43,547 bases of DNA, taken from positions 1 to 43,547 of the forward strand of contig JAAYZF010000196.1 of assembly GCA_012514975.1 (NCBI GenBank). Reading direction: 5' to 3'. This stretch comes from a bacterium (GTDB lineage Bacteria > Auribacterota > UBA3054 > JAAYZF01). Below, piece after piece: positions 1,339 through 33,975 of the stretch. A model generated the notes under the pieces. The model was not told where the DNA came from, searched no databases, and worked only from the letters and a program-made list of their open reading frames with translations. Every line of letters starts with the position of its first letter. Position 1 is the first letter of the stretch. Made by a program: the position numbers and the translations under genes.

Positions 1339-2667
1339 ATGAACATCCGCATCCGCACTATGGCGTTCACGGCCGCCGTACTGGCAACGTGCATCCTGCA
1401 TGCCGGCATCTCCACGCCCGTCTGGCCGCAGACACGGAAGGGCAAGTCCAAGCTCAAACTGGCAGAGGTGCCGATGACGCCGCCGCTGGTCGCCGAGCTC
1501 GCCTACACGAATCTCCTGTCGATTATGCAGTCAAACGTCCTGCTGGGCGTGTCGGCCGGCCCATTCTCCCTTGAGCCGAAGGTGAAGCGGAAGACGGGCG
1601 AGATCAAGATGTGGAGCTACAGCGAGAAAGACCGGGCCACGAAGTTCAAGGTGAAGATCAAAGTGCTCGCCAAGAACGGGAAGTTCAAGATGAAGATCAG
1701 CCAGGCGCTGCCCGAGAGCGTTGTTGTCTGCGCGCCAGGCAAGGCAGCGGTCGTGAATGAGCTCGCCACCATCGCGGGCGGCGTGTTTCTCATGGGCGCG
1801 TCAAACCAGTACTACTCCCCGAGCAGCCCTGAGAACATCGTGCACCAGGTCAATGTCAGCGCCTTTATGATCGAGAAATGCGAAGTGTCGAACGGCCGGA
1901 TGTGCCAGGTGCTCCAATGGGCGTACGACCACGGGCTGCTCAACGCATCGGCAACGTCGCTCCAGAACAGCGAAGGCACGCCGCAGACGCTGATCAATCT
2001 TGCCAACTATGCGTGCGACATCACGTTCGCCAACGGCGTGTTCCTGGTGAAGAACGGGCGCGAGGGGTTCCCGTGCTCCGTCGCCACCTGGTACGGCGCG
2101 CTGGCGTACTGCAATTACAGGAGCGATATCGAGGGATTCACCCGCTGCATCGATTTCACCACGTGGAGCTGTGACGTGGCCCGCACGGGATACCGCCTTC
2201 CCACCGAGGCGGAATGGGAAAAGGCGGCGCGCGGCGGCCTCGTCGCACAGTGGTACCCATGGCCCGGCGCCGGCGGGGTGTGCACCGATCACATCGACGG
2301 CAGCAAGGCCGACTATTATCTCAGCGGCGGCACATTCCACAGCGATCTTGCCGTGTGCGGCTATTACAACGGCGGCCAGCTCCCCCCTGGCGGCGACATG
2401 GCCAACGGCTACGGCCTCTACGACATGGCCGGCAATGCGCAGGAATGGTGCTGGGACTGGTACAAGCAGGATTTCTACAAGGATGCTGCCGCCACGGCGC
2501 CCGACACGATGGGCCCGGTGCAGGACGGCGCCCTGTTCTACAAGGTCGTCCGCGGCGGCGGATGGGGCATGCAGTCGCATGCCCTGCGCTGCGCCGCGCG
2601 CGATGACGCGTTGCCGACGGACAGCGCGTACCGCGGCATCGGCTTTCGCTGCGTCCGCAGGCCGTGA
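1339..2667 (+). CDS. SUMF1/formylglycine-generating-enzyme-fold protein, secreted
   Basis: SD AAGGAGG before ATG 1339, signal-peptide-like N-terminus, 'GGVFLMGASNQ', 'YRLPTEAEWEKAARGG', 'GLYDMAGNAQEWCWDWY', 'VVRGGGWG', 'GFRCVR' typical of the FGE-sulfatase fold. ORF track starts upstream at 1162; 1339 preferred. Confidence 0.85.
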   Translation: MNIRIRTMAFTAAVLATCILHAGISTPVWPQTRKGKSKLKLAEVPMTPPLVAELAYTNLLSIMQSNVLLGVSAGPFSLEPKVKRKTGEIKMWSYSEKDRATKFKVKIKVLAKNGKFKMKISQALPESVVVCAPGKAAVVNELATIAGGVFLMGASNQYYSPSSPENIVHQVNVSAFMIEKCEVSNGRMCQVLQWAYDHGLLNASATSLQNSEGTPQTLINLANYACDITFANGVFLVKNGREGFPCSVATWYGALAYCNYRSDIEGFTRCIDFTTWSCDVARTGYRLPTEAEWEKAARGGLVAQWYPWPGAGGVCTDHIDGSKADYYLSGGTFHSDLAVCGYYNGGQLPPGGDMANGYGLYDMAGNAQEWCWDWYKQDFYKDAAATAPDTMGPVQDGALFYKVVRGGGWGMQSHALRCAARDDALPTDSAYRGIGFRCVRRP

Positions 2668-2713
2668 GGCAGGATCGGCCACACTGGTCGCCGGAGCCGG
2701 CGCATCGGCCAGC

Positions 2714-4160
<1,447 letters not shown>

Positions 4161-5637: not shown

Positions 5638-7269
5638 ATGTCCAACGAGCAGCGCTTCAGAGGCATTCCCGTCAGCGGCGGCGTCGCCGTCGCGCGCGCC
5701 TGCCTGCTCAACGAGTACCGTCACAGCGACGCCGAGCCCCGCGCCATCGCCCGCGAGGAGATTCCGCGCGAGCAGCAACGCCTCCACACCGCTCTGGATC
5801 GCGTGGCCCAGCGGCTCGGGCAGGTGAAGGAGCAGGTGGCCGCACGCCTCGGCACGGCCGAAGCCGAAATATTCGTCGCGCAGAAACTGATCGTCGAGGA
5901 CGTCAGTCTCCGTACCGCCATGGACGAAATCATCGCGCGCGAAGCATGCAACGCCGAGGCGGCCGCGGCATCGGCGCTCGATGCGTTCGAACGGCGCCTG
6001 CGTGCCGTCGAGGACGAGTACCTCAGCGCGCGCGCCTCGGACATCACCGAGATCAAACGCTGCGTGCTTGACGCGCTCGGCAGCATGAACCCGCTGCTGC
6101 GCTGTGAGGGGCAAGATTCCTGCGAGCATGGGCGCAATCGCGTCGTCGTCGCCCTCGAATTGACGCCCGCCATGACCCTCGAGCTCGATGCGGAGCAGGC
6201 CCGTGCGTTCGTCACCGAGCGGGGCGGCAGAACGTCCCACGCGGCCATCCTTGCCCGCGCGCTTGGCATCCCGGCCGTCACCGGCATTCCGCGCGTGCAT
6301 GAGCAGATTCCGTGCGGCACCACCGTCCTCGTCAACGGCGATACCGGCGAGGTCGTTACATCCCCGTCCGCCAACACGCTCGCCCGCCATCCGGTGACCA
6401 GCCGCGCCCGCACCGTCACCGCCGGTGACGAGCCGGTCGAGAGCTTTGCCGTGATGGCGAACATCAACCTGAGCAGCGACGCCGGAGCCGCGCTCGAAGT
6501 GAAGGCTGAAGGCATCGGCCTCTACCGCACCGAGTTCGAATGCATTGCGGCGGGCCGGCTGCTTACCGAGGACGAGCAGTACGAGCGTTACGCCGCCGTG
6601 CTCGCGCACATGAAGGGCCGGCCGGTCTACTTCAGGCTGCTCGATGTGGGCGGGGACAAGCGCGCCCCGTTCCTCGACCTGCCGCCGGAGGAGAACCCGT
6701 ACCTCGGGTGCCGCGGCGCGCGCTTCCTGCTCGCGCGGCCGGATGTCCTCGCGCCGCAGGCCCGCGCGCTTGTCCGCGCATCGCGGCACGGCGTCGTCAA
6801 CGTCATCCATCCGATGATCGTCGATTTCGACCAGTTCATCGCGCTCAAAAACCTCTTTTCCGAATCAGCAAGCGGACTGCAAGGCGGCACCGTCCGCCAT
6901 GGCATCATGTTCGAAGTGCCGTCTGCCTGCCTTCAGGCTGCCGCGCTCCTCGAGGAGGCGGACTTCGCGACCATCGGCAGCAACGACCTGATCCAGTACC
7001 TGTTCGTCGTCGATCGGGACAACGAAGCGGTGGCGCGCGATTACACGCCCGACAGGCCGGTGTTCTGGGACGTGCTCAGAGCCCTGGCCGACGCGGCGCG
7101 CGCGGCGGGCAAGCCGCTGTCGCTCTGCGGCGAGATCGGCGGGGATCCGCGCTATATAAGCAGATTGATGGACCTCGGGATCACCAGCGTCAGCGCGAGC
7201 GTGCGCCTTGTCGCACGGGTGCGCACGGCCGCGCGGAACTACCGTGCGGGCAACAACTACACAATCTGA
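5638..7269 (+). CDS. ptsI: Phosphoenolpyruvate-protein phosphotransferase (PTS enzyme I)
   Basis: 'GGRTSHAAILARALGIPAVTG' phospho-His motif, 'GIGLYRTEFE', 'GGDKRAPFL', 'GIMFEVPSACL', 'IGSNDLIQYLFVVDR', 'LCGEIGGDP'. GTG 5629 is an alternative start. Confidence 0.9.
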   Translation: MSNEQRFRGIPVSGGVAVARACLLNEYRHSDAEPRAIAREEIPREQQRLHTALDRVAQRLGQVKEQVAARLGTAEAEIFVAQKLIVEDVSLRTAMDEIIAREACNAEAAAASALDAFERRLRAVEDEYLSARASDITEIKRCVLDALGSMNPLLRCEGQDSCEHGRNRVVVALELTPAMTLELDAEQARAFVTERGGRTSHAAILARALGIPAVTGIPRVHEQIPCGTTVLVNGDTGEVVTSPSANTLARHPVTSRARTVTAGDEPVESFAVMANINLSSDAGAALEVKAEGIGLYRTEFECIAAGRLLTEDEQYERYAAVLAHMKGRPVYFRLLDVGGDKRAPFLDLPPEENPYLGCRGARFLLARPDVLAPQARALVRASRHGVVNVIHPMIVDFDQFIALKNLFSESASGLQGGTVRHGIMFEVPSACLQAAALLEEADFATIGSNDLIQYLFVVDRDNEAVARDYTPDRPVFWDVLRALADAARAAGKPLSLCGEIGGDPRYISRLMDLGITSVSASVRLVARVRTAARNYRAGNNYTI

Positions 7270-7334
7270 CCGCCGCACCGCCCGCGGCGGCCCGCGGGCG
7301 CGGAGCGGCTAACCACCTGCTGAGGGAGACACCC

Positions 7335-7853
7335 ATGAGTGCAACAACCGAACGCGTCACATTCAAAGGCAGTCCGCTTACCCTGGCGGGCACCCTCGTC
7401 TCCGTGGGGGACACGGCGCCCGGGTTCTCGGCGCTTGCCAACGATCTCTCCCCGGTGACCCTGGCGGCGCTTGCGGGAAAGGTCGCCGTCGTCTTCTCGG
7501 TGCCGTCGCTCGACACGGCCGTCTGCGACGTCGAGACGCGGCGTTTCAACCAGGAGGCCGTGAAGCTGAGCCCGGCAGTCGAGGTGTGGTGCATCAGCAT
7601 GGACCTGCCGTTCGCCCAGGCGCGCTGGTGCGGCGCGTCAGGCGTCGAGCGCGTCAGGACGGCGTCCGACCATCGCGATGCGTCGTTCGGCCTGGCCTAC
7701 GGCGTGCTCGTCAAGGAGCTCCGCCTGCTCGCCCGCGCGGTGTTTGTGATCGACAAGGCCGGGAAGGTCGCCTACAAGCAGCTCGTGCCGGAGATCACCG
7801 CCGAGCCTGATTACGCGGCCGCTGTACAGGCGGTGACAAAATTGGTATACTAG
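7335..7853 (+). CDS. tpx: Thiol peroxidase (atypical 2-Cys peroxiredoxin)
   Basis: 'VTFKGSPLTLAGTLVSVGDTAPGF', 'PSLDTAVCDVETRRFN', 'SMDLPFAQARWCG', 'LVPEITAEPDY'. Confidence 0.93.
   Translation: MSATTERVTFKGSPLTLAGTLVSVGDTAPGFSALANDLSPVTLAALAGKVAVVFSVPSLDTAVCDVETRRFNQEAVKLSPAVEVWCISMDLPFAQARWCGASGVERVRTASDHRDASFGLAYGVLVKELRLLARAVFVIDKAGKVAYKQLVPEITAEPDYAAAVQAVTKLVY
7823..7851 (+). promoter_or_regulatory. Promoter of ferritin gene (inside tpx 3' end)
   Basis: TGTACA 7823-7828, 17-nt spacer, TGG-TATACT (7846-7851). Confidence 0.55.
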
Positions 7854-7891
7854 CACCGAAATAGCATGTTAACAATTTACAGGGAGGCACC

Positions 7892-8386
7892 ATGCTCAGT
7901 CAAGCGGTTCTCAAGGCGCTCAACGACCAGATCAACTTCGAGCTCTACTCGGGCTACATCTATCTCTCGATGGCTGCGTACTTCGAGACGAAGAACCTCA
8001 AGGGCTGTGCCACCTGGATGCGCGCCCAGGCCAAGGAGGAACATTCCCACGCCATGCGCATCTACGACTTCATCGTCAAGCGCATGGGCGCCGTCAAACT
8101 CGCCGCGATTGCCGGGCCCAAAACCGCATGGGAATCCCCGCTCGCTGCGTTCCAGGACGCGCTCAAGCACGAACAGGCTGTCACCAAACGGATCAACAGT
8201 CTCGTCGCCCTCGCCGGGAAGGAGAACGACACCGCCACAGGCATCTTCCTCCAGTGGTTCGTCACCGAACAGCTCGAGGAGGAGGAGCAGACGGACGAGA
8301 TCGTCCAGAAGCTCAGGATGATCAAGGACTCGGCCAACGGGCTGTTCATGATCGACCATGCGCTCGGCAAGCGCACGGAAGGCTGA
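7892..8386 (+). CDS. Ferritin (FtnA-like)
   Basis: 'ALNDQINFELYSGYIYLSMAAYFE', 'EEHSHAMRIYDFI', 'FLQWFVTEQLEEEEQ' diiron ferritin motifs. Confidence 0.94.
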   Translation: MLSQAVLKALNDQINFELYSGYIYLSMAAYFETKNLKGCATWMRAQAKEEHSHAMRIYDFIVKRMGAVKLAAIAGPKTAWESPLAAFQDALKHEQAVTKRINSLVALAGKENDTATGIFLQWFVTEQLEEEEQTDEIVQKLRMIKDSANGLFMIDHALGKRTEG

Positions 8387-8461
8387 TTCCCCGGCGGATG
8401 AGTGACCGCCTGGCTGCACCCGGCGGAACGGCCGGGCCCTTCCATGGCTGCGGCGTTCGTG

Positions 8462-8491
8462 TTGTCTATCCGGCTCGATAACGGGTATACT
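8462..8491 (+). promoter_or_regulatory. Promoter of zwf (predicted leaderless)
   Basis: TTGTCT 8462-8467, 18-nt spacer, TATACT 8486-8491; ATG starts 8498. Confidence 0.55.
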
Positions 8492-8497
8492 AGTGGC

Positions 8498-10120
8498 ATG
8501 GCGGCAGTCCCGTACATCACCGTCTCGGACAACCTGTGCATCGAGCAGGTGCCTGATGCATGCGGCCTTGTCGTCTTCGGCGCGACCGGCGACCTGACGC
8601 ACCGGAAGCTTCTTCCCTCGCTCTTCGGCCTGCAGTGCAAGAGGCTCCTGCCGGCGCAGTTCTTCCTCCTGGGCTGTGGGCGTACGGCATTGTCGGACGA
8701 GTCGTTCCGTGCGTCCGTGCGTGACACGCTTCGCGCCCTCCCGGAGAACGATGAGGGCATGGTCGCCTCCTTTTGCGCGCGATGCTGGTACCAGCAGGGG
8801 GTCTATGACTCGCCGGCGCTGTATGCGGCGCTGCGCGACCGCATGCGCGGGCTTCACGCCGCGAACGGCACGCACGGCAACACCGTGTTCTACCTCTCCA
8901 CGCCCCCGTCCGTCTATGGCGCCATCGTCGCCCGCCTCGGCGCCGCGCGCCTTGCAGCGGAGCACGAGGACGGCAACGGCTGGATGCGCGTCATCGTCGA
9001 GAAGCCGCACGGAAGAGACCTTGCCACCGCGCGCGAGCTTGCACGCGCCCTGCGCGTGGCGCTCGCCGAGACGCAGATATACCGCATTGACCACTACCTC
9101 GGCAAGGAGACCGTCCAGAACATCCTGATCTTCCGGTTCGCCAATGCGGTCTTCGAGCCGCTGTGGAACCGTCAGTACATTGACAACGTACAGATCACCG
9201 CCGCCGAATGCATGGGTGTCGAGCACCGCGCGGGGTACTTCGAGCAGGCGGGCATGCTGCGCGACTTCTTCCAGAATCACCTGCTGCAGATGCTTGCGCT
9301 GGTGGCGATGGAGCCGCCCGCCTCGTCGGAGGCGCCGCGCATGCACGACGGCAAGGCGCAGTTGCTGCGTTCGCTCCGCCCGTTCGATCCGGCGACCCTC
9401 GAGCAGCAGATCATACGCGGCCAGTACGCGGCGGGCACGGTCAGGAACATGACGGCGCCGGGCTACCGGGACGAGCCCGGCGTGGCGGGGTCGTCGATCG
9501 TGGAGACGTACGTCGCCGCCCGGCTGTTCATCGACAACTGGCGGTGGCAGGGGGTGCCGTTCTACCTGCGCGCGGGCAAGCGCCTCCCGCGACGGTGCAG
9601 CGAGATCGCCGTCACGTTCAAGCACGTGCCGCATTCCGTGTTCCAGCCGCTGCAGCCTGAGAATCTCGCGCCCAACGCGCTCGTGTTCAACGTCCAGCCC
9701 GACGAGGGCATCGCCCTGTCGATCCAGGCGAAGCATCCGGGCCCGCGGCTGTGCATGAGCACGCTCACCATGAATTTCAGCTATCGTTCCGTGTTCCATG
9801 CCGACCCGCCGGAGGCATACGAACGCCTTCTGCTGGACTGCATGCTGGGCGACCAGACGCTGTTCATCCGCGAGGACAGCGTCGAGACCACCTGGTCGCT
9901 CCTTCAGCCCGTGCTGGACACATGGCGTGTGTGTTCGGCCGAACACCAGCTCCATTCCTACGCGGCCGGCTCCTGGGGGCCCGATGCGGCTGACGCGTTG
10001 CCGGCGCTCGACGGGCGGCAGTGGCGTGCGCTGTGCGTCGAGCATCCGTGCGAGGAATGCAGACTGACGCGCACCACGGCTCCCGGGTGCAGTGCGATCT
10101 CCAAGGGCAGTGCGCCATGA
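8498..10120 (+). CDS. zwf: Glucose-6-phosphate 1-dehydrogenase
   Basis: '[21 protein letters not shown]', '[15 protein letters not shown]', '[41 protein letters not shown]', 'YLRAGKRL'. Start moved to ATG 8498 from 8402. Confidence 0.95.
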
Positions 10121-13133: not shown

Positions 13134-15095
13134 CTACCACGCGTGCCTTCCTGCGCTTTGCTGCTCGACCCACGCGCGGTTCGCCGCCGCCTTCGGGCTG
13201 GGCGACACGCGGAGCACCGTGTCCCACGCGGCGAGCGCCTCGTCATAGCGGCGCAGACACTGCAGTGTGTATGCGCGGTTGAACAGCGAATCCGTGTCGT
13301 CCGGATGGCGCGCGAGCCATTCGTCGTACAATGCCAGCGCCTGGAGATGGAGGCCTGACGAGAGGTAGCTGAGGCCGAGATGGAGGATCAGCTCCCTGTC
13401 GTCCGCAAGCGTCCGCCGGGCGTGCTCCAGATCGGCCGCCGCTTCGGCATGGCGGCCGAGCTTGTAGTACGCAATGCCGCGCAATTTGCGGAAGGGCGCG
13501 CTCTCGGGCTTGTCCGTGATGATCCCGTCGAGCGGGCCTATCGACTCGGCGTACATACCGCGCTTCTGCAGGTCGTACACCAGCCAGGTGACCACCGCGC
13601 CGTGCTTCGAGTCGAGCTGGTAGGCGTGGCGGAAGTGGCTGTCCGCGTCCGCGTCGCGGCCCATTGCCCGGTAGAGGATGCCCAGGTTGATGTGGACGTA
13701 GAGATAGTCCGGCCAGAGCCGCCTGCATTCCAGGAAGTGCTCTTCAGCCTTCTCGTAGTTGCCCCGGGCCATGTATTCGAGCCCGAGGTTCATCTGCGCG
13801 CGTCCGCTCGACGGCGCATGTTCGACGGCGACCTGCCAGAGGCGAAGGTTGTCCGCCCAGATGGCGTTTTCGGCGCGTGACGCGTGAATGTACCACGCGG
13901 CCGCGACGGCGCAGAAGCCCGCGCAGGCAATCCCGGCGGCGCGCGGTGTCCACACGCGTGCCAGCGCCTTCCACGCATGCCCGAGCAACGCCGCGGCGGC
14001 AACGCACACGCCCGGCAGCGCGATGTACGGCCGGTGGTAGTTGATCGGCTGGTTAAGATCAGTAAAGGTCTGCTCGGGAATCAACGCGATGAAATACCAG
14101 AGCAGGCCGAACGTCACCACGGGCAGCCGCCGCCTTCCGCAGAGGACCAGTGCGTACAGCGAGGCGAGCGTGCCGATGGCGAGCAGGCTGCGCGGGTCGC
14201 TCACCGCCGTCACGCCGAAGTCCACCGGATCGATCGGAAACGCGGTCGGGAAAAGAAACTGCCTGAGGTAATGGACCTGGCCGCGCGCGTGCGTCGCAAG
14301 CTTGTCCGCCAGCGTGCCTGAGGTGAACACGGGCGCGAGCGCATCCATGCCGATGAACAACTTGACGCGCAAAGCGTACAACAGCACAACCGCGGCAAAC
14401 AGCGCGACCGGCACAACGCGCCGGGCGCGGCTCACCGGCGCCGCCGCCCTGCCCCAGTCCCATGCCTCGTACGCGATGAACAGCAGGCCGAGCGTGCCGC
14501 CGATGTCCTTGCTCATCACGCTCAGCACCATGCACGCGCAGACGGGCACATACCACGCCCAGTGCCGCGTCCGTGCGTGCAGGTAGAGCGCAAAGCCCAG
14601 CAGATAGAACAGCGTTGCCAGGGATGCCGCGCGGCACATCGTGTAGTTCACCGTCTCCGCGTTGACCGGCGCGACGACGAACCATGCCGCGCCGGCGCAC
14701 GCCGCGAGCATCGCCGGCAGCGCATCCGCGCCCAGCCACTCGCGCACGAGCCGGCGTGCTATGAGCCAGATCAACATGCCGCACACGATGTGGATGGCGA
14801 GATTGACCGCGTGATATCCATACGGGCGGAGCTCGCACACGGCGTAGTTCAGCGCGAGCGAGAGCGTGAAGACCGGGCGGTATGTCAGGTTGTTCCTGCT
14901 CGAAGAGAAGGTCGTGGTGTCGTGGAAGAAACGGGGGATGTTCTTCAGGGACCTGATCGCGTAGTTCGAGACGAGCACGTGGCTGTCGTCAAAATAGAAC
15001 CCGTTCGCCAGCGAGTTCGAAAAGGCGAGCACGCCGAGACAGGCGATGCCGGCAAGACAGCCAAGCGTCAGAAGGCGGGTGCGCAACGCGTTCAT
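13134..15095 (-). CDS. TMTC-like multi-pass GT-C membrane protein with C-terminal TPR repeats (candidate O-glycosyltransferase)
   Basis: 'GFYFDDSHVLVSNYAIRSLKNIPRFFHDTT' (early acidic DD loop), 'YRPVFTLSLALNYAVCELRPYGYHAVNLAIHI', many TM helices, then TPRs ('AQMNLGLEYMARGNYEKAEEHFLECRRLWPD', 'VHINLGILYRAMGRDADADSHF'). Confidence 0.75.
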   Translation of the reverse strand: MNALRTRLLTLGCLAGIACLGVLAFSNSLANGFYFDDSHVLVSNYAIRSLKNIPRFFHDTTTFSSSRNNLTYRPVFTLSLALNYAVCELRPYGYHAVNLAIHIVCGMLIWLIARRLVREWLGADALPAMLAACAGAAWFVVAPVNAETVNYTMCRAASLATLFYLLGFALYLHARTRHWAWYVPVCACMVLSVMSKDIGGTLGLLFIAYEAWDWGRAAAPVSRARRVVPVALFAAVVLLYALRVKLFIGMDALAPVFTSGTLADKLATHARGQVHYLRQFLFPTAFPIDPVDFGVTAVSDPRSLLAIGTLASLYALVLCGRRRLPVVTFGLLWYFIALIPEQTFTDLNQPINYHRPYIALPGVCVAAAALLGHAWKALARVWTPRAAGIACAGFCAVAAAWYIHASRAENAIWADNLRLWQVAVEHAPSSGRAQMNLGLEYMARGNYEKAEEHFLECRRLWPDYLYVHINLGILYRAMGRDADADSHFRHAYQLDSKHGAVVTWLVYDLQKRGMYAESIGPLDGIITDKPESAPFRKLRGIAYYKLGRHAEAAADLEHARRTLADDRELILHLGLSYLSSGLHLQALALYDEWLARHPDDTDSLFNRAYTLQCLRRYDEALAAWDTVLRVSPSPKAAANRAWVEQQSAGRHAW

Positions 15096-15748
15096 GGGTC
15101 CACACCGGTTGTTGATGATGTACGCGCCCGTTTCCCCGCGAGCACGAACACCGAAAACGACAGCGGCCGGAACAGGCCGAAGTATCCCCGCGCCAGCCGC
15201 GCCAGCCCGGCCGTACGCAGACAACGGTCAAGCGCGCGGTTCGAGAAGAAGCGGATGTGCGGCCCCGTCGGGTCAAAGTGCCTGTCAAACCAGACAGCAA
15301 CGAGCACAAGGTTCTTGAGGAAGCCGTGATAGGGCGTGGTGATGAGCAGCCGGCCGCCGGGCTTGAGCACGCGGGCCATCTCGCGGAACAGGGCCTCCGT
15401 GTCGTACACATGTTCGATGACCTCGGTCGCGAGGATGAAATCGACCGAGGCATCCGCAAGCGGCAGCGGGGCGCCATCGGCGATGCGGTGGAACGCGGCA
15501 TGCGGCGCGGCCTTCGCCGCAAGGTCAAGCGCGGCCTGCGAGACGTCCACACCGGTGAAGCGCGCCTGTGGGTTCAACGCGCTCATGGCGCAGACGAACC
15601 GGCCGTCGCCGCACCCGACATCGAGGATGTGCACGCCCGGCTCGCGCGGGATGAACCGGCTGAGCTTCGGCCATTTGCGCTGGAAATCCTTCACCTGCGC
15701 GGCCGTCTCGAGCCAGTACCGTTCGTAGAAGGAGTGTGCGGTGGTCAT
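15092..15748 (-). CDS. Class I SAM-dependent methyltransferase (UbiG-like)
   Basis: 'VHILDVGCGDGRFVCAMSAL', 'DFILATEVIEHVYDTEALFREMARVLKPGGRLLITTPYHG'. Confidence 0.9.
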   Translation of the reverse strand: MTTAHSFYERYWLETAAQVKDFQRKWPKLSRFIPREPGVHILDVGCGDGRFVCAMSALNPQARFTGVDVSQAALDLAAKAAPHAAFHRIADGAPLPLADASVDFILATEVIEHVYDTEALFREMARVLKPGGRLLITTPYHGFLKNLVLVAVWFDRHFDPTGPHIRFFSNRALDRCLRTAGLARLARGYFGLFRPLSFSVFVLAGKRARTSSTTGVDP

Positions 15749-16221
15749 AGGGAGTCAAGGTATGCCTTCAGTGCGCGACAAATGCCGCTGTCTTCGACTG
15801 AGACGCGCTTGCATGTCCATGGCGTGCCGAGCGCCTCCAGAATGGCTTCATCGAGCGCGGCCGTGTCCTCGACCGCGGGCACGCCGTATCTTTCGCGCAG
15901 CGCCCGTGCGTGGAGGACCTGGTGGTCGTTGATGTGCTCGCCGCGGGCGGCCGTTCGCGGCACGAGAATGAACGGCGTGCCGCGCATGAGCAGCTCGATG
16001 ACCGTGCCGCTGCCGCAGTGCGTGACCACGAGCGCGGCGCGCGCCATGTCCGCCTCGAGCGACGGCGCGAAGCGGTACCACGCGGCGGCGCGCGGGTGGC
16101 ACGTCGAGTGGCCGGTCTGGATGACCACCTCGTGCTCCGGGTGTGCGGCGGCGAACGCGTCGAGCGCGGCTACCAGCCGGTTGAACGGCGCGTCATGAGT
16201 GCCCACGGTGCCGAGGATCAC
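15745..16221 (-). CDS. Alg13/PssE-like glycosyltransferase C-terminal (catalytic) subunit
   Basis: 'MILGTVGTHDAPFNRLVAALDAFA', 'VVTHCGSGTVIELLMRGTPFILVPR...HINDHQVLHARAL' (GT28-C fold donor-binding motif). Confidence 0.85.
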   Translation of the reverse strand: MILGTVGTHDAPFNRLVAALDAFAAAHPEHEVVIQTGHSTCHPRAAAWYRFAPSLEADMARAALVVTHCGSGTVIELLMRGTPFILVPRTAARGEHINDHQVLHARALRERYGVPAVEDTAALDEAILEALGTPWTCKRVSVEDSGICRALKAYLDSL

Positions 16222-16676
16222 AGCAGTCCTCCGTGAAATTCCGCGCGCGGGCCGTACGCGGCGAGCGTCTCCCTGTTCTGCACATAGAAGCGGTTCGAGA
16301 CCGGGTAGAGCAGCCGGCCCGTCAGCGTCGGCGTGTCGAACTGCGCGGTGATCTCGATGAACACGCGCCTGGCGCCGAAGAGCAGCGCCCAGAAGAACGC
16401 GATGAGCGCCGGCTCAGAGCCTGTCGAGACCACCACGTCCGGCCGCTCGCGCCAGAAGGCCCTCCACATGATCCACGCCGCCGGCAGGGCCTTGAGCACG
16501 TTGCGCGGGAAGTGCGGCACAAGGTACTTCCGGCACCCGAGCGCGCGCGTCCGCTCGCAGTCGTACGTGATCAGGAACCAGTTGTGCGCCTCGTACGCGG
16601 GCTTCATCAGCAGAAGCTCGGTCAGGTGTCCGCCGTGCGAGCACACAAGGCACACGGTGAGCTTTTGCGCGTTCAT
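16218..16676 (-). CDS. Alg14/PssD-like membrane-anchoring glycosyltransferase subunit
   Basis: 'LTVCLVCSHGGHLTELLLMKPAYE', 'PDVVVSTGSEPALIAFFWALLFGARRVFIEITAQFDTPTLTGRLLYPVSNRFYVQN' matches PssD/Alg14. ATG 16682 is an alternative start. Confidence 0.85.
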   Translation of the reverse strand: MNAQKLTVCLVCSHGGHLTELLLMKPAYEAHNWFLITYDCERTRALGCRKYLVPHFPRNVLKALPAAWIMWRAFWRERPDVVVSTGSEPALIAFFWALLFGARRVFIEITAQFDTPTLTGRLLYPVSNRFYVQNRETLAAYGPRAEFHGGLL

Positions 16677-17773
16677 TACCATCTGATCAACGGGTATGCC
16701 AGCTTCCAGTACAGCGCCAGCAGCGGGTTCGCCACGTGGCGCAACAGCGGGTTCTCGACGCGCGCGTCGGCGAAGACGACGCGCGGCGTCGCCAGGCGCA
16801 GCAGCTCGCGGTCGCTCACCGTGCGCAGCGCCTGCACGCGCTTCCGCTTCCGCAGCCAGTGGGCGAGGGCGCCCGGGCGGCACCAGTAGAACATCGCGCG
16901 CAGCTTCTCGCGCAGCCACCCCTGCGCCGTCGCCAGCACGAGCAGACCGCACTCCATCGTCACGCCCATCGGCAGGAGGAGCAGCAGCGTGCGCCAGCGG
17001 TAGTACAACAGCAGCACGGCCCAGCGGTTGCGTTCGAGGAAGTAGTACTTGCCCGCCGTGCGCGCGAAGTGATACTTGTGGAAGAACACCGCGTCGCGCA
17101 CGACCGCCGTGCGATACCCCGCGATGCGCAGCCGCAGGGAGTACTCGAGGTCCTCCTGGTAGAGGAAGAAACCCTCGTCAAGCATGCCAACCTCGCGGCA
17201 CACGCGCGTTCTCAAGAGCACCGCGCAGCCGCTTGCGGAGCCCGTTTCCTCGACCGTGTCCATGATGAGGTCCGCCCGGCGCGTCCGGTACTGTCCGCAG
17301 TGTCCAAAGCCGAGGTACTGGAAGGCCTGGCGCGCGGTGTTCACCAGGTGCGTCTCGGGATGAAGCAGGATGAGCGGCTGCGCGGCGCCAAGGCTCGCCG
17401 TGCGCTCCATCGCGTCGACGAGGCGACCGATGCAGCCCGCCTCGACGTACCCGTCGTCGTTGTGCAGGAAGACGTATTCACAGCCATGGCCGGCCGCCCA
17501 GGCGATGCCCGCGTTGACGCCCGCGCCGTACCCGCGGTTCTCCTGCTGCGCGAGAAGAGCCGTCTCGAGCGGCGACGCGCCTGCCTCCGCGGCAAGCGTG
17601 CGCTCGATGAAGCCGGCCGACGAGCCGTATCCGGGCGCGGGATTGTCGACCACCACCAGCGCCAGCCGCTCCGCCGGATACGCGCAGTGCAGCAACGCGC
17701 GCACGGCGTCCGGCAGGTGCTCGTCGCAGTGGTACGACACATAGATGACTGCCACGCGTGGAAGGATGCTCAT
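16676..17773 (-). CDS. GT2 family glycosyltransferase (rhamnosyltransferase-like)
   Basis: 'VAVIYVSYHCDEHLPDAVRALLHCAYPAERLALVVVDNPAPG', 'ENRGYGAGVNAGIAWAAGHGCEYVFLHNDDGYVEAG', 'DEGFFLYQEDLEYSLRLRIAGYR'. Possible GTG start at 17782 (GTGA overlap). Confidence 0.9.
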   Translation of the reverse strand: MSILPRVAVIYVSYHCDEHLPDAVRALLHCAYPAERLALVVVDNPAPGYGSSAGFIERTLAAEAGASPLETALLAQQENRGYGAGVNAGIAWAAGHGCEYVFLHNDDGYVEAGCIGRLVDAMERTASLGAAQPLILLHPETHLVNTARQAFQYLGFGHCGQYRTRRADLIMDTVEETGSASGCAVLLRTRVCREVGMLDEGFFLYQEDLEYSLRLRIAGYRTAVVRDAVFFHKYHFARTAGKYYFLERNRWAVLLLYYRWRTLLLLLPMGVTMECGLLVLATAQGWLREKLRAMFYWCRPGALAHWLRKRKRVQALRTVSDRELLRLATPRVVFADARVENPLLRHVANPLLALYWKLAYPLIRW

Positions 17774-17778
17774 TGCGT

Positions 17779-18168
17779 TCACGTGTGCGCATCGCGCCCG
17801 CTGTCCCGGCGCTCGAGCTCCCGCACCCTGAGTTCGAGCAGGGCGAGCGACTGCGCCAGATCCCGGTTCTTGTCTGACAGTGACGAGATGACGACGGAAA
17901 ACTGGATCAGGATGAGCAGGTGCGCCATGAGCAGGATCAGCAGCAGCGCCGAGGGCGAATACGCAATGCCGATCATCGCGCTCAACGAGTCCATCGCCGT
18001 GCGCGAGACGGAGAAGAACAGGAACGCGACGCCGAAGAACAACCAGAGCAGCGAGTACTCGATCCGCAGATGCTTCGAGCGCATCAGGTGGAAGACAAAC
18101 AGCAGGAAACACAGGCTGGCGATCACGCCGATGTACTGGATGCGTACGATGTCGACAGGCGGAGTCAT
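17779..18168 (-). CDS. DUF2304 family small membrane protein
   Basis: ~129 aa, three TM helices with 'LLFVFHLMRSKHLRIEYSLLWLFFGVAFLFFS', cytosolic coiled-coil tail; directly downstream of a DPM1-like GT2. Confidence 0.8.
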   Translation of the reverse strand: MTPPVDIVRIQYIGVIASLCFLLFVFHLMRSKHLRIEYSLLWLFFGVAFLFFSVSRTAMDSLSAMIGIAYSPSALLLILLMAHLLILIQFSVVISSLSDKNRDLAQSLALLELRVRELERRDSGRDAHT

Positions 18169-18875
18169 GAGCGTTCCTTGCGTGCTGCGCGGGTGACCGT
18201 GACGAACAGGGCAATCAGCACTTTCACCATGTAGTATGCGGCGCGCACCCCGCGGATGGAAGAGGCGCCCCCGGCGCGTTCGCGCATGGACACCGGCACC
18301 TCGGCGATGCGCAGGCCGTTCCTGCCCATCAGGATCACGGCTTCCGGCTCCGGGTAATCGTGCGGATACTCCCGCGCGAGCAGCCCGATCGCCCGCCCGT
18401 TGTAGGCGCGGAATCCCGAAGTGTTGTCCGTGATGCGCTGATGGATGAGCAGCCGGTTGACCGCCTCGAACAGGCGGATGCCCGCGCGCCGCGCAGGCGT
18501 TGACTTGTACCCGTCCGTCCCGAGGAACCGCGAGCCGATGACGGCGTCGGCAGTGCCGGCCTCGATCGGCGCAACGAGCTTCGCGATCTCCGCCGCGCAG
18601 TGCTGCCCATCGCCGTCGAATTGCAGCGCGACGGCATACCCGTGATCGAGCGCGTAGCGAAACCCCGTCTGCACCGCGCCGCCGATGCCAAGGTTCACCG
18701 GCAGGGTGACCACCGTTGCGCCGGCTTCCCGTGCGCGCATGGCCGTGGCATCGGTCGACCCGTCGTTGACCACGAGCACATCGACCGCCGGCGCGTTGCA
18801 CGCAAGGTCGGCCAGCACGCTCTGGACGGCGTCCTGCTCGTTGAACGCAGGCACTATGGCAAGTGGTCTCCGCAT
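18165..18875 (-). CDS. GT2 family polyprenyl-phosphate (dolichol-P-mannose synthase/DPM1-like) glycosyltransferase
   Basis: '[20 protein letters not shown]', '[13 protein letters not shown]', '[32 protein letters not shown]', 'VIGSRFLG', '[10 protein letters not shown]', 'RAGGASSI'. Confidence 0.92.
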
Positions 18876-18921: not shown

Positions 18922-18950
18922 ATGATACCATCACGCGCCCCGGGTGTCAA
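18922..18950 (-). promoter_or_regulatory. Sigma70-type promoter for the glycan operon
   Basis: On minus strand TTGACA (18950-18945), 17-nt spacer, TATCAT (18927-18922). Confidence 0.65.
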
Positions 18951-19010: not shown

Positions 19011-21221
19011 ATGCGGTTGAACACACCATTGCCTCCCCGTGTCGCAGCGGCGTTCGCCGCCGCGCTTCCGCCCGGCGAGCACGTCATACTGTCCTGCATC
19101 GGGGACCTGACGCTTTCCCGCGCGTTCGGCCCGTGCTATGTTGCGGTGACGCGGACATGCGTGGCCGTCGCGGACGACGGCACGCCGCCGCGCGTGCTGC
19201 GCCTCTCCGGCATCGCCGAGGTCAAGACGCTCGAACTGTTCGGCTCGGGCGCCCTTGCCGCCGTGGGCGGCGGGGACGAGACGGTTCTCTGCTACTACTC
19301 GAAGGCCTGCGTCCCCGAGTTCGCCGTTCTGTGCCGCGCGATGAACGACGTGATCAAGGGACGCGAGCCCGTGCTTCCCGACGAGCACGAGGCGGCCTAC
19401 TGCGCCAAGTGCGGCGCGCCGCTGCCCGAGCGCGGACAGCACTGCCCGCTGTGCGTGCCCACGCTCACCATTTTCCGCAGAATCATCGGCTTGCTTGCGC
19501 CGTACCGCGTGCGCACGTTCATCCTGATGGCTGCGACGCTCGTCACGGTCGCCACGCAGATGGTTCCGCCATATCTTACCAAGCGCATCTTCGACAACGT
19601 CATCGAGAAGAAGCAGTACGGCACGCTGCCCCTCTGGATCGGCGGGATGGTCGCCTGCGCCGTCGTCCGCCTCGTGGCGCGCTACCTTGGCGACGGGCTC
19701 GTCTCGTGGCTCGGCGGGAGGATCGTGGCGGACCTGCGCGCGCGGCTGCACACCCGGCTCCTTCTGCTCCGGCTCAACTACTTCGACAAGCGCGGCTCGG
19801 GCGAGACGGTGAGCCGCGTGATGTACGACACGACCGAGCTGTTTCACTTCCTCAACGACGGCCTGCCGTATTTCCTGACGAACTGCATCCTCTTCGTCTC
19901 GATCGCCGTCGTGCTGCTCATGCTCGATGTGCGCCTGGCGCTGCTGGTGTTCTTCCCCGTGCCGCTGCTGCTGGTGGGCAGCAGGTGGTTCTGGCGGCGG
20001 TTGATCCCGCTGTTCCACAAGCGCGGCAGCAGGATCGACACGCTGCACTCGATACTCAACGAATCGATCGAAGGCATCACCGCCATCAAGTCGTTCTCGC
20101 GCGAGAACTCGCGCAGCCGCCTGTTCGGCGGCGTGAACGAACACGTCTTCCGCGCCAATTTCGGCATCGACAGCACCTTCATCGGCTTCTCCGAGATGAT
20201 GTTCTTCATCATGTCGCTGGGCGTGACGGGCGTCTGGTACTTCTCCGCGCGACGCATCGTGAATGCCGATCCCACGCTCACCTTCGGCACCGTCCTCGCC
20301 TTCGTCGGCTACATCTGGCTCTTCTACGGCCCGCTCCAGTGGTTCACCGCCGTCATGAACTGGATGACCCACGCCTTCGCCGGCGCCGAACGCATCTTCA
20401 CCATCCTTGACACAGTGCCCGAGACGTACGACGCGCCCAACGCCATTCCCGTGCCGCGCATCCGAGGCGCCATCGCGTTCAATGACGTGCGTTTCAGCTA
20501 CGAGCGCGGCAAGGAGATCATCAAAGGCGTCACGTTCGACATCGCCCCCGGCCAGATGATCGGCCTCGTCGGGAAATCCGGCGCGGGCAAGAGCACCATC
20601 ATCAAACTCATCTGCCGGTTCTACGACGTCGATGCCGGCCTCATCACCATCGACGGCCATCCGGTCGGCGATCTCAAGATCAACGACCTGCGCGGACAGA
20701 TCGGCCTGGTGTCCCAGGAGCCCTTCCTGTTCAACGCGAGCATTCTCGAGAACATCCGGTACAGCAAGCCCGACGCTTCGTTCGCGGAAGTCGTCAACGC
20801 CGCCCGCGCAGCCCGCGCGCACGAGTTCATCCTGGGCAAGGAGGAGGGGTACGACACGCTCATCGGCGAACGCGGCGCCCAGCTCTCCGGCGGCGAACGC
20901 CAGCGCATCGCCATCGCCCGCGCCATCCTGCACAACCCGCCGATCCTCATCCTCGACGAGGCCACCTCGTCCATCGACCTTGAAACCGAGAAGGCCATCC
21001 AGGAGGCCATCTCAAACCTCATCCAGGGCCGCACCACCATCGCCATCGCCCACCGGCTGACCACCCTGCGCCACGCCAGCAAGCTCATCGTCCTGGATGA
21101 AGGCAGAGTCGCGGAGATGGGCACGCATGACGAGCTGGTGGCGCGCGACGGCCAGTATGCGCGGCTCGTGCGCGTGCAGAACGAGCTGAGCGCGCTGCGG
21201 TCCCAGGCATGGAGCGAGTAA
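19011..21221 (+). CDS. ABC transporter, fused permease/ATPase, with extra N-terminal domain and Cys4 zinc-ribbon-like knuckle
   Basis: N-terminal ~130 aa then '[18 protein letters not shown]'; type I exporter TMD; Walker A '[16 protein letters not shown]', Q-loop, '[16 protein letters not shown]', Walker B '[14 protein letters not shown]', 'AHRLTTL'. Start moved to ATG 19011 from 18600. Confidence 0.93.
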
Positions 21222-21232
21222 GGAATGCATCG

Positions 21233-21703
21233 ATGAGCCCGGCAGACTCAATCATCTTCACACGCAAGGGCGACCGCGTGCTCATGACGCGCGACGGGGC
21301 CGGCGAAACGCCTGTGACGCTTGCCTGGGCGCGCCCCGTCTCGAGCATCGGCCGCGAAGTCGCCGTCCTCGATGAGAAGGGGCACGAACTCCTCATGCTC
21401 GATTCGCTCGACGAGCTCGAACCCGCATCGCGCGCCGTCGCCGCTGAGGAACTGGGACGCCGCTATCTCGTCGCCGTCATCACCCGCGTCGTCCGCACCC
21501 GCTCGCACTACGGCGAGCGCTACTGGGATGTCGAGACGGACCGCGGGCCGCGCTCGTTCGTCATCAAGAGCCCCGCCGTCCACATCCACTGGATTTCCGA
21601 CGACCGCCTGGTCATCAAGGACACCTTCGGCAACCGGTTCGAAATCCCTTCGCTCCGCCGTCTCGATCCCGCGTCGCGCGCCGAGGTCGAGAGAATACTC
21701 TGA
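21233..21703 (+). CDS. DUF1854 family protein
   Basis: Immediately downstream of the ABC exporter; 'RRYLVAVITRVVRTRSHYGERYWDVETDRGPRSFVIKSPAVHIHWISDDRLVIKDTFGNRFEIPSLRRLDPASRAEVERIL' is DUF1854-like. Confidence 0.8.
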   Translation: MSPADSIIFTRKGDRVLMTRDGAGETPVTLAWARPVSSIGREVAVLDEKGHELLMLDSLDELEPASRAVAAEELGRRYLVAVITRVVRTRSHYGERYWDVETDRGPRSFVIKSPAVHIHWISDDRLVIKDTFGNRFEIPSLRRLDPASRAEVERIL

Positions 21704-31149: not shown

Positions 31150-31179
31150 TTGCCCCTGCAGCCGGTTTCATGGTATACT
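31150..31179 (+). promoter_or_regulatory. Putative promoter of GH-A/PEP-CTERM gene
   Basis: TTGCCC 31150-31155, 18-nt spacer, extended -10 TGG-TATACT (31174-31179). Confidence 0.5.
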
Positions 31180-31227
31180 ATTAGGACCGGCACACGCTGG
31201 ATACGGCTATCATACCAACGGAACCAC

Positions 31228-33975
31228 ATGAAGGCACTAGAGACACTTGGCGTCCTCCTGCTGATCATCTGCGCAATGGCGCTGCCCGCGGCGGGCGTTG
31301 ACGTGTATCCCGAGAGCGCGATCAACTACACGGCGGTCGAGGGCGGGTATCTGCACCTGTACGCCAACAATGCCTCGTGGGGGCCTTCGTGGGCGTACTT
31401 CAGCTTCGGCGGCTCCGCAATCGTGAGCAACGGCCACAGGTACTATGACTACACCGCCACCATCGGCGGCACCACGAACAAGATACGCATGCGCCACGAG
31501 TGCTGGCAGCCCGTATCGAACCAGGTGGCCATGTGGTTCGAGCTGACACCGCAGCAGGACGCGCTCGTGGTGATGATCGCGTGCGCGGTCAACGGGTACA
31601 AGCCGGTGTTTGCAGGCGGCACGGCCTACGGCATCTCGCCCGAGGGGCAGACGAACACCGCCGCACTGCCGCTCAGCGTCATCGGCACGCTCGGCGCGTC
31701 AGTCTCGCGCGTCATCCTTCGCGCGACGAACGGGATGGAGGAGATCATCGACATCGACCCGCCGCGCCGCATCACCATGGACAGCCAGGCGCGCATCGAG
31801 CTGGCATCGGGCGCGCTCACGGCGGGCGTGCCGCTTGCCACGACGCTTACGTTCACCTTTCCTGGCGCGGCCACGTTTTTCGCGAACGAGCAGGAGAGCT
31901 GGATCGAGTCCGATACCAACAACTGGTTCGCCTATCCCGTCGGGCCGGGCGGCGTGCCTGTCGACCTGAGTTTTCTCAACAAGGACGAGGGCGGGAATTT
32001 CATACCTGCCGGGGCGCATGGATTCGTGGCGGCGACGAACGGCAATTTCGTGTTCGAGGACGGGACGCCCGCGCGGTTCTGGGGCTTGAACTGCACCGCC
32101 GGCGCCGCGCTCAGCGGCACCAACCGCGCGGCACAGCTTGCCACCCGCCTTGCGCGCCTCGGCGTCAATGTCGTGCGCCTGCACCACCTGGACAGTTGGG
32201 CCTCGCCCATCATCGATTACAACCATCCTGACGGCACGACCCAGCATCTCTACGAGCCCTCGATGACCAATCTTGATGCCATGATCCACCAGATGAAACT
32301 CCGTGGCATCTACACCGTGCTCGACCCGTGGGTGCAGCGCTGCTTCAAGCCGGCCGACGGCGTGGCTGACTACGGCCATTACGGCGAGCGCAACAATTTC
32401 TATCTTCATCCGTGGGTTTACATGGATGCCCGCATGCAGGAGCTGATCGGCCTGACGTGGTCGCAGATATGGAACCACGTGAACGTGTACACGGGCGTCG
32501 CCTACAAGGACGAGCCGGCGATCATCATCACCGAGGTGATCAACGAGGGCCTGATGCAGCGCGGCGCGAACAGCGTTTCGCGCAACCCGTGGATCACGAC
32601 ATTCACCAACGGCTACGAAGTCTGGGCGCGCCTCAACGGCTGGAAGACGAACGTCGGCATGACCATCATCAGCCAGAACTACGGTGAAGCGAACCTGCGG
32701 TATTACAACTACGTCCATCACAATTTCTACGACGCCATGGTTGCCCGCTTCCGCGCCATCGGCCTGCGCATCCCGATCAACGCGAACAACTGGAGCGCGT
32801 GGCCATGGGAGGTCCTCGCACAGTCAGGCTACAGCTTCATGGACAGCCATCATTATTACGGCGGCGACCAGATCGGCCCCGGCTCCGGCCTCGGCGGCCT
32901 GTGGCTCTCGCATCCGCCGGGCATGCCCGAATCGCCCTTTGGCAAATTCGCCGTGCACGCCCTTCCCGGCGCGGCGCTCACCTCGAGCGAATGCGGCAAC
33001 AACCCGCCCAAGACGTACCGCTCGGCCTATTCGCTCGGCCTTGCCGCCGTCGCTTCGTTCCAGGACTGGGACGGGTTCACCGGCTATGCCTACAGCCAGG
33101 CGGGCAGCCCGGGCAGCACGCTCAGCGCGTATGAATGGGAGACCGACCCCGCATCCATTGCGTCGATTGCAGCGGGCGCGCTGGTCTACCGCCGCGGCGA
33201 CGTGCGTCCGGCCGGGCAGACCGTCGGTTTCACTCATTCGAACGCCGAGCTGTGGGACCTCCCGTGGCAGAACGGCGGCGAGAAAAACCTGCGCAACACG
33301 CGCGGCTTCAACACCATGATCGAGCAGCACAAGGTGCTTGTCTCGCTCTCCAACGCGTTCCCAAGCGGCGTGACGACCTTCACGAATTTCACGGTCGCCC
33401 AAGCATTCGCCTACTCGAACACAACGACCGAGGTGACAAGTGACACCGGCGAGCTGTGGCGCGACTGGGGCCGCGGCGTCGGCCTCATCAACACGCCGCG
33501 GACGCAGGCGGCATACGGCAATCTTGGCATAGCCAGCCAGGCGTTCTCGACGGCGGACTGTACGTTCAACATCAGCACTCCCTACGCCGTTGTCTCGCTG
33601 AGCAGCCTGGTCGACGCGCCCATCAGCAATTCATACCATTGGCTGCTTGTGGCGGTGGCACGCGCGGAAAACTACGGCCAGGCGGCCAACCATGCCATGA
33701 CGCGCATCACGCGCACAGGCGCCGCGCCCGTGATGAGCGAACCTGTCGTCGGAACGCTCAGCGCGCGGCTCGGCGCGGGCAGCGTCGTGATGTATCCCAT
33801 CCGCGTCAACGGCACGCGCGGCCCCGCCGTTCCCCTCGCGGTGACGGGCGGTGTCGCCACCATCGACCTGAAGGCGGAGCACCAGACCATCTTCTACGAG
33901 ATAACCGTCATACCTGAGCCTGGCATGATAGCGATGGGGCTGGGGCTCTGTCTGTTGGGCCATGCCAGGCGCTGA
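31228..33975 (+). CDS. Secreted GH-A-clan-like glycoside hydrolase with PEP-CTERM-like C-terminus
   Basis: Signal peptide; extra N-terminal domain (~230 aa); 'EDGTPARFWGLNC', 'VVRLHHLDSW', 'IITEVINEG' (putative acid/base), 'TSSECGNN' (putative nucleophile), C-terminal 'VIPEPGMIAMGLGLCLLGHARR'. Confidence 0.75.
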   Translation: MKALETLGVLLLIICAMALPAAGVDVYPESAINYTAVEGGYLHLYANNASWGPSWAYFSFGGSAIVSNGHRYYDYTATIGGTTNKIRMRHECWQPVSNQVAMWFELTPQQDALVVMIACAVNGYKPVFAGGTAYGISPEGQTNTAALPLSVIGTLGASVSRVILRATNGMEEIIDIDPPRRITMDSQARIELASGALTAGVPLATTLTFTFPGAATFFANEQESWIESDTNNWFAYPVGPGGVPVDLSFLNKDEGGNFIPAGAHGFVAATNGNFVFEDGTPARFWGLNCTAGAALSGTNRAAQLATRLARLGVNVVRLHHLDSWASPIIDYNHPDGTTQHLYEPSMTNLDAMIHQMKLRGIYTVLDPWVQRCFKPADGVADYGHYGERNNFYLHPWVYMDARMQELIGLTWSQIWNHVNVYTGVAYKDEPAIIITEVINEGLMQRGANSVSRNPWITTFTNGYEVWARLNGWKTNVGMTIISQNYGEANLRYYNYVHHNFYDAMVARFRAIGLRIPINANNWSAWPWEVLAQSGYSFMDSHHYYGGDQIGPGSGLGGLWLSHPPGMPESPFGKFAVHALPGAALTSSECGNNPPKTYRSAYSLGLAAVASFQDWDGFTGYAYSQAGSPGSTLSAYEWETDPASIASIAAGALVYRRGDVRPAGQTVGFTHSNAELWDLPWQNGGEKNLRNTRGFNTMIEQHKVLVSLSNAFPSGVTTFTNFTVAQAFAYSNTTTEVTSDTGELWRDWGRGVGLINTPRTQAAYGNLGIASQAFSTADCTFNISTPYAVVSLSSLVDAPISNSYHWLLVAVARAENYGQAANHAMTRITRTGAAPVMSEPVVGTLSARLGAGSVVMYPIRVNGTRGPAVPLAVTGGVATIDLKAEHQTIFYEITVIPEPGMIAMGLGLCLLGHARR

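Follow-up and report, generated by a model that had tools for sequence, protein, structure and literature searches.

In animals, the eukaryotic TMTC proteins O-mannosylate proteins from a polyprenyl-phosphate-mannose donor. Bacterial TMTC homologues are known from sequence, and the literature found assigns a donor or an acceptor to none of them. In the known GacI/GacJ-type cases, a polyprenyl monophosphate is charged using UDP-GlcNAc; the product of GacI/GacJ and of WpsA/WpsB is C55-P-GlcNAc, and activity is higher with the small membrane protein of each pair (PMC10821137, PMC8035078, PMC8327497). In lactococci, the next glycosyltransferase elongates the C55-P-linked sugar in the cytoplasm prior to export, followed by a proposed GT-C transfer (PMC10821137), and the two-subunit pairs EpsE/EpsF and Alg14/13 extend lipid-linked acceptors by a beta-1,4 sugar (PMC8993221). 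Here we describe a seven-gene operon on contig JAAYZF010000196.1 of GenBank assembly GCA_012514975.1, from a bacterium of the phylum Auribacterota; the window, i.e., the whole stretch of DNA analyzed, comprises positions 1 to 43,547 of this contig. The operon very likely places the gene for a TMTC-like membrane protein with C-terminal tetratricopeptide repeats (TPRs) in one transcript with a recognizable donor pathway, offering a clonable test of what bacterial TMTC-like proteins transfer and of whether the TPRs choose a protein.

The seven genes lie on the minus strand, from 18875 to 13134, with an overlap of 1 to 4 nt at every junction (ATGA or GTGA 4-nt overlaps plus one TAATG), so that a single transcription unit is very likely. 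The first-pass annotation, made from the letters and their open reading frames, had listed these genes in the same order and described nearly all of the junctions as overlapping; all seven are present at the coordinates below, their Pfam domain calls hold, and the overlap in fact extends to every junction.

18922..18950, minus strand: promoter-like site TTGACA-17-TATCAT, with the first ATG 47 nt downstream (consensus match only)
18165..18875, minus strand: gtA, DPM1-like GT2, candidate polyprenyl-phosphate sugar synthase, 236 aa (Pfam GT2, 3.6e-20)
17779..18168, minus strand: DUF2304 small membrane protein, GacJ/WpsB-like partner of gtA, 129 aa (PF10066, 1.1e-22)
16676..17782, minus strand: gtB, GT2, candidate elongating glycosyltransferase, 368 aa, GTG start (PF13641, 2.7e-12)
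16218..16676, minus strand: Alg14/PssD-like subunit, 152 aa (PF08660, 1.4e-8)
15745..16221, minus strand: Alg13/PssE-like catalytic subunit, 158 aa, GTG start (PF04101, Glyco_tran_28_C, 9.6e-17)
15092..15748, minus strand: S-adenosylmethionine-dependent methyltransferase, 218 aa (PF08241, Methyltransf_11, 1.5e-24)
13806..15095, minus strand: TMTC-like GT-C membrane domain, residues 1-430 of the last protein (BLASTP, hhalign, AlphaFold model with fold search, and topology)
13134..13805, minus strand: TPR domain at the C terminus of the last protein, covering about residues 431-653, with a predicted periplasmic location (Pfam TPR_1, 1.4e-21)

Because the GT-C call for the last protein (gene 15095–13134, with a 4-nt overlap with the methyltransferase gene) is invisible to Pfam, profile comparison and structure prediction were needed. 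The GT-C half aligned along its whole length with TMTC-like proteins, at 23% identity over 418 aa (1e-18) in a single BLASTP comparison to one encoded by a related genome, and at a probability of 100% (3.3e-43) in profile–profile comparison by hhalign. One relative found via the same family profile exceeds the curated cut-offs for both TMTC_DUF1736 and PMT. TMTC_DUF1736 (PF08409) had no match in the last protein at E 10 and none across its own genome, and neither the profile of the GT-C half nor the TMTC-like set matched a PDB sequence. Since a fold search with the full-length model was dominated by the TPRs, a second AlphaFold model was made of residues 1 to 430 from nine sequences (pTM 0.76, mean pLDDT 68, i.e., moderate confidence). 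Foldseek with this model returned high-probability matches to AftA, ArnT with undecaprenyl phosphate, and PIG-U, and lower-probability matches to Emb proteins. All of these are GT-C folds, so the search did not place the protein outside the GT-C superfamily. The predicted topology comprises 11 transmembrane segments and follows the positive-inside rule (14 K/R in 49 inside loop residues versus 11 in 144 outside). It puts D36 D37 (in the first outer loop), a DUF1736-like loop, an arginine loop, and the TPRs on the outside, the same topology as described for TMTC. Marker residues of the domain are D36 D37, Y72 R73 P74, K196, and R355, and those invariant across nine relatives are D36 D37, R73, R155, K196, R355, and Y357; the acidic DD loop singled out for checking by the first-pass annotation is therefore both present and conserved. 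Among the TMTC motifs M1–M7 (PMC7801869), DD, YRP, K+acid+T, the loop D, and the loop R+Y are kept. These comparisons and the model support assignment of the N-terminal half as a putative TMTC-related GT-C, as first proposed. It is encoded alongside a predicted lipid-phosphate-sugar synthase, as the transferase of a multicomponent transmembrane glycosylation system would be.

In the donor half, gtA carries a DGDGQ metal motif (residues 87–91), the DxDxQ form described for WpsA, and among solved structures its nearest sequence match is a dolichol-P-mannose synthase (PDB 5mlz, E 9.9e-9). Relatives of gtA are 37 to 47% identical, most of them encoded near a DUF2304 gene. The DUF2304 gene of the operon follows gtA directly, with an ATGA overlap, and encodes three hydrophobic, predicted transmembrane, segments; this is the GacI/GacJ-type layout. 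The best NCBIfam match of gtA, PpgS (polyprenyl-phospho-N-acetylgalactosaminyl synthase), reaches 111 bits against a 370-bit cut-off, and the sugar specificity is therefore not transferable. Other models also fell short: gtB scored 37 bits against the rhamnosyltransferase model TIGR01556, far under the cut-off, the Alg14-like subunit 107.1 bits against the PssD equivalog cut-off of 110, and the Alg13-like subunit 95.3 bits against the PssE equivalog cut-off of 120. Because every specificity model scores under its cut-off, the sugars of the operon cannot be named. Homology and the published GacI/GacJ and WpsA/WpsB precedents support the first-pass proposal of lipid-linked sugar assembly by a DPM1-like GT2, the donor half being a probable example of a known module in which a lipid-phosphate-sugar synthase with its DUF2304 partner is followed by elongation.

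The computed results, namely the family assignments, the close overlap of the genes, the homology to TMTC, and the topology prediction, suggest the following scheme. gtA and its DUF2304 partner would charge a polyprenyl monophosphate with one sugar on the cytoplasmic side, and gtB and the Alg14/Alg13-like pair would add further sugars, both steps having precedent in other bacteria. The methyltransferase may methylate one sugar of the glycan, and the lipid-linked glycan would be flipped in trans by a protein encoded outside the operon. On the periplasmic side, the TMTC-like GT-C domain would hand over the glycan, and the acceptor would most likely be a protein, either secreted or at the surface, that the TPR superhelix in the periplasm recruits. 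The flippase, the identity of the sugars, the target of methylation, and above all the protein acceptor are the conjectural parts of this scheme.

The TPR domain was modeled as a superhelix at high pLDDT and matched the TPRs of OGT. In TMTC1–4 the proposed role of the repeats is recruitment of the protein substrate (PMC11292533), an analogy by which the domain would point to a protein acceptor. We regard a donor pathway plus GT-C transfer as probable; the whole reading, with a protein acceptor, is held tentatively at slightly under an even chance, because every characterized system found of this donor layout acts on polysaccharide. Several observations weigh against it. The characterized systems in question, GacIJKL and WpsA–J, decorate polysaccharides. 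Pfam and NCBIfam find TPRs only, and no GT-C match, in the last protein; the Foldseek E-values are all above 0.001 (best 2.5e-3), a weakness attributable to the mean pLDDT of 68; and several TMTC motifs are altered (RxD, with A at residue 157; the full SHKSYRP; the E of ERxxY; and KE, which is KD). No flippase gene lies within the seven-gene operon, and a GtrA-type flippase protein had no match in the organism's own assembly, which is 76% complete; two Wzx-type genes outside the operon could provide flippase function in trans. The same seven-gene operon is absent from relatives, being confined to the window's own species among 44 genomes (species) of the phylum, so that co-conservation cannot be used. 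Of the first-pass proposal that the operon builds a lipid-linked sugar and its last gene glycosylates secreted proteins, the donor half and the TMTC relationship are thus supported; the step from a TMTC-like protein to protein O-glycosylation is a conjecture.

A serious rival, with a real if minority chance of being correct, keeps the donor pathway and GT-C transfer but assumes a glycan acceptor (lipopolysaccharide, surface polysaccharide, or glycolipid) as in GacIJKL, WpsA–J, and Gtr, the TPRs docking a partner protein rather than the substrate. Beyond the polysaccharide precedents, its support comes from relatives in which the gene after DUF2304 ends in F5/8C or laminin-G domains, and from one in which Wzx and a lipid A acyltransferase follow. 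DUF2304 is present in 11 of the 44 phylum genomes, usually with a gtA relative beside or near it. In two of them (L035 and L037) the genes after DUF2304 encode first a GT2 and next a PMT_2 GT-C; in a third DUF2304 is followed by a DUF5695 protein gene (L040), and in a fourth directly by a Wzx flippase gene (L041). In three loci, the next gene encodes a multipass protein ending in a module that is often carbohydrate binding: F5/8C in L042 (10125–12497; gtA not adjacent) and in L043 (7241–9649; a radical SAM gene between gtA and DUF2304), and laminin-G in L044 (7109–9760; same order as L043, with DUF2304 interrupted by Ns). These three proteins have no GT-C (membrane) assignment in Pfam and are putative GT-Cs by size and hydrophobicity. 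However, the last protein of the operon has TPRs in place of a carbohydrate-binding module, its GT-C domain is more similar to TMTC, with known protein substrates, than to the PMT_2/GacL type, which Pfam probably would recognize, and no polymerase or polysaccharide locus adjoins the operon.

The varied C-terminal modules after DUF2304 in relatives make the acceptor-binding module seem exchangeable, which suggests a fixed donor module with interchangeable acceptor modules and a simple rule for predicting the acceptors of such systems. A bolder extension, speculative and on balance doubtful, is that a bacterial enzyme of the TMTC type moves an oligosaccharide, already assembled and methyl-capped, en bloc from its polyprenyl-monophosphate carrier onto proteins. 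TMTC would then be a family of bacterial oligosaccharyltransferases in which the exchangeable C-terminal module determines the acceptor. Orthologues of gtB, the Alg14-like subunit, and the GT-C protein gave distant matches only in the order, class, and phylum. In the conservation survey called for by the first-pass annotation, no relative examined has these genes within a Wzx/Wzy locus, although one relative has Wzx right after DUF2304; none has a counterpart of the whole operon. A single-protein search of genome contigs with the last protein returned two proteins only, a TMTC-like one from Gemmataceae and a TPR lipoprotein that is unrelated, and plasmid and phage collections held no GT-C match and, for gtB, generic GT2 matches on plasmids only.

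It is unlikely that the last protein merely shares the transcript and uses a lipid-linked sugar other than that of the operon, or another partner. The organism's own genome does encode several more DPM1-like GT2 proteins and two further TMTC-like proteins, the latter on contigs without a DUF2304 match, and in the order the partners of GT-C/TPR paralogues are TMEM260-like proteins. Against this, the 4-nt overlap with the methyltransferase gene puts the last gene on what is likely the same transcript as gtA and DUF2304, the DUF2304 gene of the operon is the only one found in the genome, and GT-C or large multipass genes follow DUF2304 in several relatives. Very improbable is a fragment of an ordinary Wzx/Wzy exopolysaccharide locus, of which PssD/PssE-like proteins and GT2 enzymes are typical: among the annotated flanking genes (those for a histidine kinase and zwf to one side, an ABC transporter to the other), there is no initiating phosphoglycosyltransferase, Wzx, Wzy, export gene, or polymerase.

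The promoter-like site reported by the first-pass annotation was located at 18950–18922, with 11 of 12 matches and a TG preceding the second hexamer. A scan over 8 kb found two such sites versus 0.9 expected in shuffles, scored as consensus matches that are predicted and imply no activity. Both lie inside a single divergent intergenic region, the second serving the opposite ABC transporter gene. This transporter and an adjoining DUF1854 gene occupy 19035–21703 (plus strand), both scoring under the NCBIfam cut-offs; the best match of the transporter is a cyanophycin-associated ABC family. As a flippase candidate it was set aside in view of that match, its opposite transcription, and the adjoining DUF1854 gene. 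The G+C content of the seven genes is 61 to 69% (83–91% at third positions), similar to the flanks, and there is hence no compositional sign of recent acquisition.

The first-pass annotation had also named two PEP-CTERM hydrolases as conceivable targets. PEP-CTERM-like tails do end two neighboring proteins of the window (31150–33975 and 34000–36168, plus strand), and an exosortase is present in the genome. Pfam at E 1e-5 finds no domain on either protein, hence no hydrolase domain, and nothing links the two to the operon. In the titles and abstracts covered on PEP-CTERM and glycosylation, nothing ties TMTC-like proteins to PEP-CTERM substrates. Elsewhere in the genome, on contig C172 (L009), a TMTC-like GT-C/TPR gene adjoins one whose protein product has a PEP-CTERM-like tail (437–2623 and 2723–3340).

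On contig C408 (L048) of the same genome, a TMTC-like GT-C/TPR gene comes immediately after one for a TMEM260-like (PF11028) protein (5701–7584 and 7581–9089). The pair, adjacent homologues of two different animal O-mannosyltransferase families, recurs across the order in L050, L051, and L054, and L049 and L053 have the same layout; the partner matches PF11028 in L048, L050, L051, and L054 and has no such match in L049. TMTC-like sequences were also seen in viral contigs. Ten from IMG/VR (L056–L062 and L064–L066) carry short TMTC-like GT-C frames of 337 to 419 aa matching the family profile, and in L055 a TMTC-like GT-C/TPR protein (2088–3875) is encoded just before genes resembling small and large terminase; a motif scan of viral contigs gave no match.

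Compared with described systems, the operon resembles lactococcal WpsA/WpsB-WpsC...WpsG-WpsJ (PMC10821137) and group A Streptococcus GacI/GacJ/GacK/GacL in placing a GT2 beside a DUF2304-type small membrane protein. It shares further cytoplasmic glycosyltransferases with Wps, and with both a GT-C that would transfer from a polyprenyl-phosphate donor. Unlike these systems, which add to rhamnan, it has no flippase, an additional Alg14/Alg13-like pair and methyltransferase, and a TMTC-like GT-C with TPRs. The split two-subunit GT-B pair, encoded by adjacent overlapping genes, is like PssD/PssE, EpsE/EpsF, and Alg14/Alg13. It differs from PssD/PssE in scoring just under the PssD and under the PssE cut-off, and its acceptor would be a lipid monophosphate glycan rather than a diphosphate. 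The last protein resembles eukaryotic TMTC1–4 (CAZy GT105), sharing a GT-C with 11 predicted transmembrane segments, DD in the first outer loop, YRP, K+acid, the loop arginine, and outer-side C-terminal TPRs. In contrast to TMTC1–4, it lacks a Pfam TMTC match, several of its motifs are altered, and its donor may be an oligosaccharide.

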